A stretch of 64,000 nt of DNA from Barnesiella intestinihominis YIT 11860. GTDB lineage: Bacteria > Bacteroidota > Bacteroidia > Bacteroidales > Barnesiellaceae. Of the stretch, positions 5,358 to 56,158 are shown piece by piece. The notes beneath the pieces were generated by a model that saw only the letters and a list, made by a program, of their open reading frames with translations, had not been told where the DNA came from and did not search any database. The position numbers and the translations under genes were made by a program. The stretch is taken from contig NZ_JH815204.1 in NCBI RefSeq assembly GCF_000296465.1, positions 124,001 to 188,000 on the forward strand, in the 5' to 3' direction. Within the stretch, counting starts at the first letter, position 1. The number at the start of each line of letters is the position of its first letter.

Positions 5358-5403
5358 GACGGAGGGGTTGAGAAGATTACATAAGAGTTTTTTGATTGCA
5401 GGT

Positions 5404-5466
5404 TTTAACCCCTCCGTCCTTCGGCCACCTCCCCTATATTTTGTGTTGCAAAACACAGAGGAGGAG
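5404..5466 (-). repeat. REP-like palindromic repeat, copy R1
   Basis: Reverse-orientation copy of the repeat seen at 5766-5834 and 21877-21949. Shared parts are the AACCCCTCCGTC arm, CACCTCCCCTATATTTTG, a short loop, CAAAACACAGAGGAGG. It can fold into a long hairpin around the TTTTG/CAAAA core. Confidence 0.75.
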
Positions 5467-5498
5467 TGAGACATCTTTGTTCTATTGTTGTTTCGGCT

Positions 5499-5577
5499 TC
5501 TCCGTTACTACGTACCGTCTCTCCTATATTTTGCTTCGTGCCACCCCGCAATGCTGCGGGGCACGGCAGAGACGGAG
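5499..5577. repeat. REP-like palindromic repeat, diverged copy R2
   Basis: Shares CTCCTATATTTTGC with the other copies, but the loop is replaced by a second perfect hairpin, CCCCGCAATGCTGCGGGG (5544-5561), and the outer arms are CTCCGT...ACGGAG. It is related to R4, which has a similar CCCCGCC/TGCTGCGGG inner hairpin. Confidence 0.6.
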
Positions 5578-5629
5578 TTTTGCGCCACCCTTTTATTATG
5601 TGATTTTGCCGGTAAGATAAGAAGTATTT

Positions 5630-5702
5630 AACCTTCTCCCCTGTTGTATTAGCAATAGGGGAGAGTTAGAAAGAACGAAGTTCCTGAGGAGAGAGGTTAA
5701 CT
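5630..5702. repeat. Long imperfect palindrome in the gene-free region
   Basis: Outer arms AACCTTCTCC and GGAGAGAGGTT enclose an inner hairpin TCTCCCCT...AGGGGAGA (about 5635-5665). The segment GCAATAGGGGAGAG recurs near 22107-22122 in the other repeat-rich intergenic region, so it is a further member or fragment of the same repeat class. Confidence 0.5.
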
Positions 5703-5765
5703 ATGAGGTGAAACACTTCCGGTTAGGTTGAACTTGTCCGGTTTTTGGAGAGGATAGTTTACTAT

Positions 5766-5834
5766 CAACCTCCTCCTCTGTGTTTTGCGAAGCAAAATAT
5801 AGGGGAGGTGTCACGTAGTGACGGAGGGGTTGAA
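5766..5834 (+). repeat. REP-like palindromic repeat, copy R3 (most regular)
   Basis: The arms CAACCTCC (5' side) and GGAGGGGTTG (3' side) can close a stem. Inside lie a hairpin around TTTTGC-gaa-GCAAAA (5783-5797) and a second hairpin TCAC-GTAG-TGA. The result is a three-way junction, nearly the reverse complement of R1. Confidence 0.75.
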
Positions 5835-6049
5835 AAAACTCGTTTGTGCTTGTTCATTCTTCTCAGCAGCGAGAAGAACGAACTCAGAAGCTCCGGCAGT
5901 TATCGGGCTATTAGGCTCGTCGCCACGGTCGCCGTCGGGGTCTGCGGAACTCGCTCCGCTCGGACGGTCCTCGCCCTTTTTCCTCCGTCTCCCTTGCGTC
6001 TTCACCGCCCGATAAAGGCGGATCGGGGTTTGTGCATTTGCTTGTATTC
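5835..6049. other. Gene-free, relatively GC-rich stretch of unknown nature
   Basis: No convincing gene. Several frames stay open only because the stretch is GC-rich and repetitive. It contains many small inverted repeats (for example GAACTCGCTCCGCTC, 5948-5962) and no family-like protein. Its composition is unlike the AT-rich intergenic sequence elsewhere in the window. Confidence 0.4.
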
Positions 6050-6172
6050 TAACCCCCCTCGACCTGCGGGCACTCCCCCCTATCGCTTTGCGCCACCCCG
6101 CCATGCTGCGGGACACGGCAGGGTGAGGAGGGGGTGAATGCCCTGTAATGCCACAGGACATGGGGGAGGTTG
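6050..6172. repeat. REP-like palindromic repeat, diverged copy R4
   Basis: Outer arms CCCCCCTCGACC and GGGGGAGGTTGA bracket inner hairpins, including CCCCGCCATGCTGCGGG (6096-6112) and GCCCTGTAATGCCACAGGAC. It shares layout with R2 and lies just upstream of the dus gene. Confidence 0.55.
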
Positions 6173-7246: not shown

Positions 7247-7296
7247 AACTGCCTTCGACCTATTTTACAGAAAAATTGTTATCTTTGAAACAAGTC

Positions 7297-7377
7297 TAAG
7301 ATGGGATGCGGTTCGGCATAGCCAGATCGGAAATGAAATTTCCGTTTGTCTCTGCGCTCACCTTTCACCATCTTTGA
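7297..7377 (+). repeat. Promoter-bearing dispersed repeat, copy 1
   Basis: One of four related about 82-bp elements (others at 12644-12724, 23310-23391, 47399-47479). It has the core GGATGCGGTTCGGCATAGCC, a hairpin CGGAAAT-GAA-ATTTCCG (7328-7344), then TTTG (7345-7348), 20 bases, and CATCTTTG (7369-7376), close to the Bacteroidetes -33/-7 promoter pattern. Its right end lies 27 bases before the DUF2007 start codon. A second -7-like TATCTTTG lies just upstream (7280-7287). Confidence 0.8.
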
Positions 7378-12199: not shown

Positions 12200-12238
12200 A
12201 TTGTGAAATAAGGGCTTATAAGTTTTTTGGATAGGTAC

Positions 12239-12304
12239 AAAAAAAAATTGATTGTCTCACGACAACCAATCTTTGTTAACCTTAAATCTAATACCATGAA
12301 AAAC
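12239..12304 (-). ncRNA. Candidate small RNA, about 65 nt
   Basis: Read on the minus strand, an exact -7 box TATATTTG(C) at 12318-12311 is followed about 7 bases later by a possible start. About 35 unstructured bases follow, then a terminator hairpin TTGGTTGTC-GTGA-GACAATCAA (12269-12248) and nine T. The stem is a complete 9-bp helix only on the minus strand, where one position is a G-U pair; on the plus strand the same position is an A-C mismatch. No coding potential beyond seven codons is seen on either strand. A -33 box is weak (TTTG at 16 bases). It lies between the NigD-like terminator and metF. Confidence 0.6.
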
Positions 12305-12643
12305 ACATTGCAAATATAGGGGTAAATATGTTCTCAAACATAATATTTAGACAATAATTTTCTTGGATTTAATTTGTTTTAACTAATGTAAATCGATTTG
12401 GTCGTAAATGTATACGGTCTTTAACATTTTGGCGAGACTGTAAACAAATATTCGCTGTTCCCGGATATTTCCTTATATTAGAATGAGATAGAAATAATTC
12501 AAAAAGGGGAAAAGGATTTGTTTGTTTTATCCTTTTCACATTTTTCGTTTGTGGTATCGGACGAGTTTGTTAAAGATGGACTGTATTCGGTATATCCAAA
12601 TAAATTTGTTTCTGCACTTGGTTTACATTATCTTTGTCATAAC

Positions 12644-12724
12644 GAAGATAGGATGTGGTTCGACATAGCTAATTCGGAAATGAGATCCCCGTTTGCCTCT
12701 GCGCTCACCTTTCACTATCTTTGT
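12644..12724 (+). repeat. Promoter-bearing dispersed repeat, copy 2
   Basis: It matches copy 1 along its length and carries TTTG (12692-12695), 20 bases and a perfect TATCTTTG (12716-12723), 68 bases before metF. It is flanked on the left by another TATCTTTGTC (12629-12638), identical to its right end TATCTTTGTC. The short hairpin is degenerate in this copy. Confidence 0.85.
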
Positions 12725-21876: not shown

Positions 21877-21949
21877 TACTCCCCCTCTCCCCCCTGTGTT
21901 TTGCTGCGCAAAATATAGGGGCGGTTTCCTCTGGACGGAGGGGTAGAAA
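21877..21949 (+). repeat. REP-like palindromic repeat, copy R5
   Basis: Same orientation and parts as R3: CTCCCCCCTGTGTTTTGC-tgc-GCAAAATATAGGGG, then a variable second arm and GGACGGAGGGGTAGAAAA. The TTTTGC/GCAAAA core keeps its pairing although the loop changes from GAA to TGC. Confidence 0.75.
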
Positions 21950-22844: not shown

Positions 22845-22876
22845 CAAAGATAGTATTTCTTTTTGAACCGTGCAAA
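22845..22876 (-). promoter_or_regulatory. Promoter of rpsP
   Basis: On the minus strand: TTTG (22876-22873), exactly 20 bases, TATCTTTG (22852-22845). The spacing equals that inside the dispersed repeat, which supports reading both as real promoters. The -7 box lies 39 bases before the start codon. Confidence 0.8.
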
Positions 22877-23309: not shown

Positions 23310-23391
23310 ACAAAGATAGCGAAAGGTGAGTGCAGAGGCAAACGGAAATTTTATTTCCGAATGGACTATGCCGAACCGCATCTCATCTTCG
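23310..23391 (-). repeat. Promoter-bearing dispersed repeat, copy 3
   Basis: Minus-strand copy. It carries TTTG (23342-23339), 20 bases and TATCTTTG (23318-23311) directed at the ArsC/Spx-family gene, and an intact hairpin CGGAAAT...ATTTCCG. A further TACATTTG lies at its left end (23405-23398 on the minus strand). Confidence 0.85.
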
Positions 23392-23460
23392 TATTTACAA
23401 ATGTACAAAAAGGCATTGTTAATGCTTCTTTTTTATTTTCGCTATAATAATATTATAATT

Positions 23461-42470: not shown

Positions 42471-42995
42471 ATGGAAATGAGAAGAATATTTTCGGTCGTT
42501 GTCTGTGCGGTGGGAATTTTTTTCTCCATGACAGCCGGGAGCAAAGACGAGTGCTTGAACAGTTACGTATCGGCGGACAGTTTGCTCCTGTACGAATATT
42601 ACGAAACGTATGTTATGATTCGGCCTTTGAACTATCTACGGGTATTTCCGGAGCAGAAAGCTGTTGCGCCGGACTGGTTTCATTATCGGGACAGGGTGAT
42701 AGAGCTTCGTGTTCTTGCGCTGAGGAAGCGGATTAGGGAGGAGTATCCGCAGGATTATCCTTTGGGGAGAGGATCCGTACGTGTGTGGCTCATGTTTTCT
42801 CTTCGTACGGGTGAATTGGTAACTGCTGAGTTAATGTTTCTAAAAGAGGTATTAGAGGTTGTCGACAGTTTCCCCGCACGGGAGATTATTGCGATGTGCA
42901 TGAACTCCGATTGGAGTGGAAGTACATATATAATGGAGCATGAGCCGGATAAATATGATAATATGTACACCGGATATCTTTTTTCACCCTATTAG
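42471..42995 (+). CDS. Small secreted protein of unknown family, copy A
   Basis: 174 aa. Signal peptide at about 1-24 ('RRIFSVVVCAVGIFFSMTAGS'). The mature part has 'DECLNSYVSADSLLLYEYYE', a variable centre, 'VAPDWFHYRDRVIELRVLALRKRI', then 'SVRVWLMFSLRTGELVTAELMFLKEVLEVVDSFPAREIIAMC'. The last piece faintly recalls the beta-alpha-beta end of TonB-like domains, but I do not recognise the family. It lies 4 bases before a near-identical copy. It sits between the PUL terminator and a histidine kinase gene. Function unknown; likely periplasmic. Confidence 0.6.
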   Translation: MEMRRIFSVVVCAVGIFFSMTAGSKDECLNSYVSADSLLLYEYYETYVMIRPLNYLRVFPEQKAVAPDWFHYRDRVIELRVLALRKRIREEYPQDYPLGRGSVRVWLMFSLRTGELVTAELMFLKEVLEVVDSFPAREIIAMCMNSDWSGSTYIMEHEPDKYDNMYTGYLFSPY

Positions 42996-42999
42996 TGTC

Positions 43000-43527
43000 A
43001 TGGATTTCAAAAAAATATTTTCGGTCGTCGTCTGTGCTGTGGGAATTTTTTTCTCCATGACAGCCGAGAGCAAAGACGAGTGCTTGAACAGTTACGTATC
43101 GGCGGACAGTTTGCTCTTGTATGAATATTACGAATCTCATATTTGGGTTAGTCCATTGAACTATCCCAGGGTATTCTCTGAGCAGAGAGCCGTTGCGCCA
43201 GACTGGTTTCATTATCGGGACAGGGTGATAGAGCTTCGTGTTCTTGCGTTGAGGAAGCGAATCTGGGAAGAGTATTTGCGAGATTTCCCTTTGGAGAGGC
43301 TATCCGTACGTGTGTGGCTCATGTTTTCTCTTCGTACGGGTGAATTGGTAACTGCTGAGTTAATGTTTCTAAAAGAGGTATTAGAGGTTGTCGACAGTTT
43401 CCCCGCACGGGAGATTATTGCGATGTGCATGAACTCCGATTGGAGTGGAAGCACGTATATAATGGAGCATGAACCGGATAAATATGATAGCATGTACACG
43501 GAGTATTTTTTTTCGCTATATTATTAG
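43000..43527 (+). CDS. Small secreted protein of unknown family, copy B
   Basis: 175 aa from the ATG at 43000, which aligns with the start of copy A. The DNA of the first about 120 and last about 190 bases is almost identical to copy A, while residues about 46-62 and 90-105 differ more (for example 'ETYVMIRPLNYLRVF' against 'ESHIWVSPLNYPRVF'). This indicates a recent tandem duplication with a diverging centre, or homogenised ends. Two cysteines are shared in the mature region (in DECLN and AMCMN). It is probably co-transcribed with copy A. Confidence 0.6.
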   Translation: MDFKKIFSVVVCAVGIFFSMTAESKDECLNSYVSADSLLLYEYYESHIWVSPLNYPRVFSEQRAVAPDWFHYRDRVIELRVLALRKRIWEEYLRDFPLERLSVRVWLMFSLRTGELVTAELMFLKEVLEVVDSFPAREIIAMCMNSDWSGSTYIMEHEPDKYDSMYTEYFFSLYY

Positions 43528-47384: not shown

Positions 47385-47398
47385 CTTATATATTTGTA

Positions 47399-47479
47399 GA
47401 ATATAGGATACGGTTCGTCATAGTCAAGTCGGAAATCTTATTTCCGCTTGCCTTTGCACTTATCTCTCACTGTATTTGA
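47399..47479 (+). repeat. Promoter-like dispersed repeat, copy 4 (most diverged)
   Basis: It aligns with copies 1-3 (ATACGGTTCGTCATAG, hairpin CGGAAAT...ATTTCCG at 47430-47446). Its promoter positions are degenerate: CTTG (47447-47450), 20 bases, TGTATTTG (47471-47478). It lies between the regulator gene and that gene's terminator, so a promoter role here is doubtful. A TATATTTG lies at its left end (47389-47396). Confidence 0.7.
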
Positions 47480-47483
47480 GGAT

Positions 47484-47520
47484 AAAAGGGTGTGGAATTT
47501 TTCCACACCCTTTTTCTTTT
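47484..47520. terminator. Terminator after the sigma-54 regulator gene
   Basis: Perfect 14-bp stem AAAAGGGTGTGGAA (47484-47497) with 47501-47514, 3-base loop, then T-rich sequence. Confidence 0.9.
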
Positions 47521-54866: not shown

Positions 54867-56158
54867 ATGGTTGCTCTATGAATATTGGATTTTATTTTTT
54901 TGATAAAGGATTGAGCGGGGTTGATTGTTCCCGTCCGGACTTAGGAAATCCGGGAGTGGGGGGAACTCAATATTGCTTTTTACTTTTGATTTATTATATA
55001 CTCCGTTTTGATCCGAAATCGTATAGGGTAAGAGTTTATTGTTCATCTGACTGTTTTTTTCCACAAGGTGTAGAGAAGGTTCTTGTTGAAGATATTTTTG
55101 AGGGTTTGACCGAATCAAAAAGACGAGGTGATGATTTTATTATCATTAAGGATAATAAGGATCAACAATTGGCTCGATTTATCGATAAACTACGGCATCG
55201 CATTGTTATTTGGGGGCATAATTTTTATTTTGGGGATTATGCCGATTGGGTTGCTAAGAGCCCGTCTGTTATTGCAAATGTTTTTGTAGGTAGGCAGCAG
55301 TATGATAGATATATAGATCACCCCATTTGTGATAAATCTTTGTTTATATATAATATGGTTCCCGATGTGGTAGGGGAAAAAAAGCGGGATAATGACGGTA
55401 AAACGGTTGTTTATTTGGGAGCATTGATTCCAGAAAAGGGATTTTTGGTATTAGCCAAAATGTGGAAGTACATTTTGAAAAAGGTTCCAATGGCACGATT
55501 ACAGGTGATAGGAGGTGGAAATCTTTATTCTAGAAATTGCTCTTTGGGAAGAATGGGAATAGCGGATAAATTGTTTGAAGAAGAGTTTTTCCCGTATTTG
55601 TCGGAAGAAGGAGAACTATTGCCATCTGTCACGTTTCAAGGAATCTTAGGGGGTGAAAAATACGAAGTTTTTTTGTCGTCGTCAGTTGGAGTAGTTAATC
55701 CGTCGGCTCGCACAGAGACCTTTGGAATGGGTGCAATTGAGATGAATTGTGCGGGGTTACCGGTTGTTACATTGGGAAAAAATGGTTATCCCGATACAAT
55801 AGAAAATGGAGTTACGGGATACTTATGCCATTCATACAAGGGAATTGCAGATAAAATTGTGTTCTTATTGACTCACGATGAGGTTAATGAACGATTGGGA
55901 ATTCAAGCAAAAGAGCAGGTGAGCCGATTTTCTCCAAAAAATATTATGCCTTTGTGGTTTAATTTGTTTGAACAAATAGCGCAGAATAAATTAATAATAA
56001 CATATCGACGTCCTGACAGTCATTTTTTCAATAATATTAAATTCGTGAGAATCCTATTGCGGTTTTTGCGTAAAAACTGTCGTTTGTCATTTCTCCCCTC
56101 GTTGATAAAAATAGAAACAGTGATATATACCTATTTAAACAAAATAATGAAAAAATGA
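54863..56158 (+). CDS. Glycosyltransferase, GT4-like
   Basis: 431 aa. ATGA overlap with the previous gene. GT-B features: 'GNPGVGGTQYCFLLLIYYIL' near the start (glycine loop), 'VVYLGALIPEKGFLVLAKMWKYILKKVPMARLQVIGGGNLYS', and 'SARTETFGMGAIEMNCAGLPVVTLGKNGYPDTIENGVTGYL' with the E-x7-E-like donor site. It acts on the repeat unit in the cytoplasm. Donor sugar unknown. The C-terminal about 60 residues are basic and hydrophobic, suggesting membrane contact. Confidence 0.82.
   Translation: MNGCSMNIGFYFFDKGLSGVDCSRPDLGNPGVGGTQYCFLLLIYYILRFDPKSYRVRVYCSSDCFFPQGVEKVLVEDIFEGLTESKRRGDDFIIIKDNKDQQLARFIDKLRHRIVIWGHNFYFGDYADWVAKSPSVIANVFVGRQQYDRYIDHPICDKSLFIYNMVPDVVGEKKRDNDGKTVVYLGALIPEKGFLVLAKMWKYILKKVPMARLQVIGGGNLYSRNCSLGRMGIADKLFEEEFFPYLSEEGELLPSVTFQGILGGEKYEVFLSSSVGVVNPSARTETFGMGAIEMNCAGLPVVTLGKNGYPDTIENGVTGYLCHSYKGIADKIVFLLTHDEVNERLGIQAKEQVSRFSPKNIMPLWFNLFEQIAQNKLIITYRRPDSHFFNNIKFVRILLRFLRKNCRLSFLPSLIKIETVIYTYLNKIMKK

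Follow-up and report, generated by a model that had tools for sequence, protein, structure and literature searches.

A family of short non-coding repeats in the genome of Barnesiella intestinihominis YIT 11860 probably represents a MITE-like mobile promoter, which inserts into the -7 boxes of native promoters in the direction of the gene, has a box on both sides and forms stacks. The window is the whole stretch of 64,000 nucleotides that was analysed (G000:C2:124001-188000) of the 3.44-Mb genome G000. It holds four matches to the core pattern of the repeat versus 0.02 expected from shuffled sequences, and these are found at the places where the original prediction had located four related copies. 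Each has a -7-like box on its left, a second box that had not been described. The features are the following.

7280-7287, plus strand: left -7 box TATCTTTG of copy 1, assigned by sequence; it corresponds to the native -7 position in the element-free relatives G002, G006 and G007.
7298-7376, plus strand: repeat copy 1 (114.3 bits), with the -33 TTTG at 7345-7348 and the -7-like CATCTTTG at 7369-7376, 27 bp 5' of a DUF2007 gene.
12573-12636, plus strand: sister unit stacked 5' of copy 2, with an exact TTTG-N20-TATCTTTG at 12605-12636; its left limit is approximate and was set by eye.
12629-12636, plus strand: left -7 box of copy 2, assigned by sequence.
12645-12723, plus strand: repeat copy 2 (113.8 bits), with the -33 at 12692-12695 and the -7 at 12716-12723, 68 bp 5' of metF.
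23311-23389, minus strand: repeat copy 3 (116.4 bits), with the -33 at 23339-23342 and the -7 at 23311-23318, 33 bp 5' of an ArsC-family gene.
23398-23405, minus strand: left -7 box TACATTTG of copy 3, assigned by sequence.
47389-47396, plus strand: left -7-like box TATATTTG of copy 4, assigned by sequence.
47400-47478, plus strand: repeat copy 4 (97.9 bits), a decayed promoter with CTTG at 47447-47450 and TGTATTTG at 47471-47478.

The predicted spacing of 20 bases between TTTG and the -7 box holds by position in all four copies, but the exact TTTG-N20-TATCTTTG is limited to 12692-12723 and 23311-23342. The same exact pattern is present on the minus strand at 22845-22876, as claimed for the promoter attributed to rpsP, and the sister unit at 12605-12636, absent from the prediction, is the fourth exact match in the window. 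For the copies preceding the three genes named above, ORF calls reproduce the expected start codon distances and the encoded proteins match DUF2007, MTHFR (metF) and ArsC, respectively. Copy 4 is directly followed by a terminator-like hairpin (47484-47514) and, because its -7 box is also damaged, it probably drives nothing.

The window carries other features of a different nature. Positions 12238-12306 (minus strand), 5' of metF and divergent from it, match the Rfam family FopS (a Bacteroidetes paralogous sRNA family), and blastn detects several copies of this stretch in the sister species. Another dispersed inverted repeat (CCCCTATATTTTG.. / ..CAAAATATAGGGG and CACCCCGCAATGCTGCGGGGCACGGCAG), with several copies, is found at 5403-6121 and 21891-21949. 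Two stretches of 300 nt (42471-42770 and 43000-43299), whose starts are 529 bp apart, are 86% identical.

The dispersed character of the repeat, predicted from four copies, extends to the whole genome. A blastn search with the 79-nt consensus yielded 65 matches, while the covariance model R1, built from 25 copies (alignment A2), gave at least 135 matches at E<=1, a lower bound as 150 of 2485 first-look candidates were scored. Inside the stretches retrieved lay 129 of these 135 matches; removal of 7 antisense duplicates and of 10 matches below 38 bits left 112. There are at least 112 copies at 38 bits or more, 76 of them strong (at least 60 bits), distributed over 85 clusters of one to three units each. 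Those scoring 38-57 bits are mostly, as judged by eye, sister subfamilies with other central hairpins and a similar right end. The repeat has in this respect the short length (~80 bp), the lack of coding capacity and the many dispersed copies of a MITE.

The leftmost part of the unit is the left -7 box, which reads TATCTTTG or TATATTTG. A spacer, frequently TNNNTACG or TAG, separates it from the left arm, AAGATAG or AATATAG; GGATGCGGTTCGGCATAG, the central hairpin and TTTG-N20-TATCTTTG follow in this order. Of the 57 copies that could be parsed, 24 have a box-to-box distance of 87 and 17 one of 82, 19 of the 76 strong copies having failed the parsing rule. The final 32 bases of the unit fit TTTG-N20-TAnnTTTG, the Bacteroidetes promoter. 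The consensus for the main sigma factor of these bacteria (sigma-ABfr), described as TTTG at about -33 and TAnnTTTG at -7 (PMC7366714), is present in the repeat. Among the 76 strong copies the right -7 box TAnnTTTG is intact in 69, TTTG-N20-TAnnTTTG is exact in 51 and YTTG-N20-TAnnTTTG is found in 67. Within the 32 bases spanning -33 to -7 the promoter positions are on average 96% conserved versus 85% for the other positions; the first T of TTTG is conserved in only 74%. The element promoter may be used for transcription. A bidirectional promoter is not claimed: the reverse strand of the consensus reads TTTG-N19-TATCTTCG, but the C of TTCG is commoner there.

The ends and the central hairpin are maintained as inverted repeats through compensatory change. 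In a structural alignment of 29 copies from 10 genomes (A3), 91% of the cells of the end stem and central stem are paired and 9 of 24 pairs have changed on both sides, whereas structures slid by 1-3 columns are paired in 38-53%. The covariation score was reached by none of 500 shuffles, a figure that is not a probability because the rows of A3 are related sequences. The inverted ends AAGATAG/CTATCTT, which are the terminal inverted repeats expected of a MITE, are short (7 bp); 98.5% of their cells are paired and 2 of the 7 pairs have changed on both sides. In 6 of the 29 rows a G-C of the end stem becomes T-A together with the -7 box, and at one pair of the stem as drawn no row is paired. Copies from G000 have CGGAAAT..ATTTCCG as their central hairpin, those inspected from the sister species mostly GAAAAC..GTTTTC.

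The repeat is oriented towards genes. The next downstream gene is co-directional in 75 of the 85 clusters with a first ORF caller, and in 76, 77 and 78 of them with a second caller run at three minimum ORF lengths (binomial p<1e-13), so that the predicted gene-directed orientation exceeds chance in a test that had been set beforehand. Note that both ORF callers are crude. Where both neighbouring genes have the same direction, clusters pointing with and against them number 38:6 (first caller) and 38:5, 37:4 and 38:3 (second caller). The clusters lie at a median of 28-33 bp from the start codon, and 72 of the 75 co-directional ones are at most 150 bp away from it. The 7-10 clusters that point at no called next gene were considered for tRNA or ncRNA targets and this was rejected, their ten loci having no tRNA and a single DUF805b motif (in L052). 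Of 43 proteins encoded downstream of clusters of at least 90 bits, 30 were scanned and 23 had Pfam matches, which share no common theme: RuvA, RecR, DnaX-type domains, SSB, LGT, MTHFR, NAD synthase, CutC, PhoU, GDP-mannose dehydratase, ArsC and others.

The box at the left of the repeat is a general feature. TAnnTTTG occurs within 70 nt around the left end in 53 of 58 single strong copies and in 18 of 18 tandem copies, compared to 4.7% of 20,000 random 70-nt windows drawn from all sequence of the retrieved loci, coding regions included, a background that is wider than promoters. Four of the five box-less single copies have a variant that is off by one or two letters.

Relatives without the element reveal what occupied its place. 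Upstream of metF, 7 of 8 relatives have a simple promoter devoid of the element, while in G000 and G002 there is at least one unit whose last -7 box runs into native sequence. In G002, one of the repeat units 5' of metF (L141/L133) is itself interrupted by a foreign insert that has the ends GGGGGTGACCCAAAAGT. The DUF2007 gene is preceded in G002, G006 and G007 by a simple promoter ending in TTATATTTG, in G001 and G008 by partial units, and in G003 and G004 by a right-end-like stretch only. The alignments suggest that insertions were independent in G000 and G005 at the same -7 box of the DUF2007 gene, and apparently also in G000 and G002 at metF.

A systematic comparison was carried out for the closest pair, the sister species G001 and G008 (93% metF identity). 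Six direct matches between the two species, one of them at only 81%, account for 12 of the first 40 element loci retrieved, and both partners carry the element. The other 28 loci and 14 more were used as 42 probes, from which L345 and L347 (no match), L187 (a CRISPR-like array) and L164 and L342 (matched at less than 80%) were left out. The 37 retained loci, whose orthologue is at least 87% identical, have an R1 match at the orthologous site in 22 cases and none in 15. By eye, nothing recognisable is left in nine of these 15, and the other six (L157, L159, L175, L191, L348, L353) keep a remnant, an inverted piece or else a sister unit. Of the nine, L166, L172, L184 and L193 align on the gene side only, from the -7 box or close to it. 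The other five form pairs that align on both sides of the insert (L158/L195, L179/L200, L180/L201, L351/L356, L352/L357), and in all of them the alignment breaks where the empty allele has its -7 box: TATTTTTG in L158, TATCTTTA in L179, TATATTTG in L180, TATCTTTG in L351 and TATATTTG in L352. The insert is bordered on either side by a -7 box, in some cases a decayed one. The two boxes flanking one filled allele are often unequal (TATCTTTT and TATTTTTG in L158), and the left one is decayed in L351. In L352 it is the element's own -7 that has decayed (TGTATCAG), the native promoter being the only intact one; because of this copy, and of the 47-kb copy of the window with its terminator-like hairpin, some copies are considered not to be promoters. 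The -7 octamers on the two sides in empty/filled pairs may represent a target-site duplication, their two versions frequently differing. An exact target-site duplication lacks support across the copies, the spacer after the left box having a consensus of its own (TNNNTACG, TAG).

The CRISPR-like array mentioned above (G001:C1:573478-578137, part of it in L187) is built of a ~47-nt repeat containing TTTGTATCTTTG, a -7 promoter box, and an R1 match adjoins its start.

Unit number varies between species and between strains. L173 (G008) and L188 (G001) differ by one 83-bp unit. Four pairs of strains were aligned: L335 and L041 differ by exactly one 69-bp unit located between TATATTTG repeats, and L333 and L065 by a cluster of changes within the hairpin. 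In L334 a loss of 8 bases has taken away part of the left box, and the left arm of L336 is 10 bases longer. These differences, together with the empty sites, agree with the original suggestion of a mobile repeat. The records MT837279, MT835643, MT836672, MT839645, MT836408 and MT835991 (L331-L336), labelled Bacteriophage sp., are 97-99% identical to this chromosome over kilobases and look like mislabelled DNA of other host strains. Carriage by phages or plasmids was rejected: a single plasmid record matched, at 77%, and of 11 'phage' records the six examined are all host chromosome at 97-99%.

The proposed element would be a small non-coding mobile unit, mostly of 82 or 87 bp from box to box, with short inverted ends, a covarying central hairpin and a right end that acts as a ready-made -33/-7 promoter. 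It would target the -7 box (TAnnTTTG) of a promoter already in place and enter it oriented like the gene, giving a box on each side. The native -33/-7 would stay upstream, and with respect to the start codon the element promoter would take over the place of the native -7. The box rebuilt in this way could then accept further units, generating directional stacks, and units could be lost between boxes. A putative recombinase or transposase, supplied in trans, would move the unit by acting on the palindromic junction; in a circular or excised form, should one arise, the junction would read CTATCTTTG-n-CGAAGATAGG. The original view that the repeat supplies promoters and rewires genes fits its promoter-like, gene-directed end but needs to be amended, as the two-sided pairs display insertion at the -7 box of a promoter that already existed. 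Since the native promoter is left upstream, 'rewiring' amounts to promoter stacking or replacement.

The serious rival, though a somewhat unlikely one, dispenses with an enzyme: the repeat would spread by short-homology recombination, gene conversion or slippage between the (CTTTCRC)TATCTTTG shared by unit ends and native promoters. Gain and loss of units between -7 repeats would be expected from it, the clustered hairpin differences between L333 and L065 resemble gene conversion, and a linked transposase was not found with the repeat's left ends in its own genome. An autonomous longer element was not found there either, as 60 of the 61 left ends belong to model matches and the remaining one adjoins a run of N. 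However, by eye the native boxes of the empty sites have only some 8-13 bp in common with the element end, little for homologous recombination, and conserved inverted ends with a covarying hairpin are what a recombinase substrate would keep. That hairpin could alternatively serve in RNA, as a leader or attenuator in transcripts that start at the native promoter and run through the element. The hairpins do covary, and a transcript of this kind would carry them given that the native promoter is kept upstream. This role is improbable: the hairpin overlaps the -33 box of the element and lies 5' of the expected start, for which it is read as a DNA feature, the -33/-7 positions are among the most conserved, and no Rfam family matches the four window copies.

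An ordinary MITE inserting at random between genes, with selection retaining the copies that work as promoters, would account for a location 5' of genes, which is also that of most copies of promoter MITEs such as Correia, by the description in PMC10969869. Selection could choose orientation and distance but not a junction on the native -7 with boxes on both sides, so that the five two-sided pairs out of five and the 53 of 58 single copies strain this explanation and make it quite unlikely. A set of immobile promoters sharing an old conserved upstream control sequence, that is, a regulon, is highly improbable. Most copies do lie just 5' of ordinary genes, and 22 of 37 probed sites, besides the six direct pairs, are common to the two closest species. 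The 15 of 37 orthologous sites where the element is undetectable refute a regulon unless all are losses; tandem units, hairpins whose sequence differs between species while pairing is kept, and functionally mixed downstream genes also oppose it. Targeted insertion of a mobile promoter remains the preferred reading.

If these promoters work, one repeat family has supplied dozens of genes of one genus with an additional or a substitute promoter, and has done so differently in sister species and strains. This would open promoter turnover in gut Bacteroidales to direct tests. Many of the genes concerned are housekeeping ones (ruvA, recR, dnaX, ssb, lgt, metF and others). Such a target specificity, insertion at the -7 box itself, would be unusual and of practical use, for instance for adding promoters in these bacteria. 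More generally, a repeat in a 5' region of these genomes is not necessarily a conserved regulatory site, as it can be mobile.

R1 matches are present in all 8 genomes of the same genus that were searched, in 3 of 51 others and, with stricter filters, in 19 of 295 genomes (11 of 177 genera) from a sample of the order. The exact subfamily pattern gave no matches in the genome contigs searched, a set that near relatives may fall outside of. A broader core pattern occurs in at least 117 stretches, Bacteroidales accounting for 80 of 80 of the matches listed. Among 84 core matches with flanks, TAnnTTTG lies at the right in 14 and at the left in 8. Given this scarcity of flanking boxes, the -7-linked form is one branch within a larger family of palindromic repeats with differing arms. 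In L214-L293 (Paludibacteraceae, Prevotellaceae, Parabacteroides and others) a palindromic core TCGGCATA..CAA..TTG..TCTGC..CTC is flanked by outer arms that vary by locus yet are often mutually complementary, by eye as if copied from the target. It is conceivable, as a tentative extension, that the repeat defines a promoter-targeted mobile class that would recognise -7 boxes, insert in one orientation by dedicated recombination at TATCTTTG-n-CGAAGATA, rebuild the box and stack interchangeable promoters before housekeeping genes across Bacteroidales.

REP and REPIN sequences, associated with RAYT transposases, are short extragenic palindromes found in many copies that are often clustered; REPs are not known to act as promoters. 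A REP/RAYT origin of the present repeat was rejected: the Y1 transposase family (Y1_Tnp, PF01797) is missing from 12 of 13 element-rich genomes, being present in one of these 13 versus 10 of 12 element-free genomes. Putative mobile promoters have reportedly been treated by Matus-Garcia in 2012 and van Passel in 2014, and neither work is known to state an insertion at the -7 box. Correia elements duplicate a TA target.

Mobile promoters are an established idea according to PMC8049555, and the MITEs described as carrying promoters include Correia, BrickBuilt, MITEAba12, QMITE1 and SonMITE_1 (PMC10969869, PMC4596501). A description of the present repeat was not found among the open-licence PMC papers listed, subscription papers and bioRxiv being outside that search, and box-targeted, gene-directed insertion looks new. 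The Correia elements of Neisseria (CREE/NEMIS) are, by their description in PMC10969869, similarly non-coding MITEs with more than 100 copies, mostly 5' of genes and carrying sigma70-type promoters; they differ in host, and insertion into promoter boxes is not part of that description. The repeat analysed here is set apart from them by its insertion at the -7 octamer and its strong orientation bias. BrickBuilt, from Porphyromonas gingivalis, also a member of Bacteroidales, is likewise described as an intergenic MITE near genes with promoter activity, but is made of a leader and a tail around 23-nt tandem repeats, has bidirectional promoters and is present in 19 copies in ATCC 33277 (PMC4596501). 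Its terminal inverted repeat GAGACCTTTGCA, similar to ISPg elements by the same account, has no exact match in the window; one match with a single mismatch at 55715 is at chance level and away from the copies. No 23-nt tandem repeats of the BrickBuilt type were seen by eye in the copies inspected: the unit repeated in tandem is here the whole 82-87-bp element.
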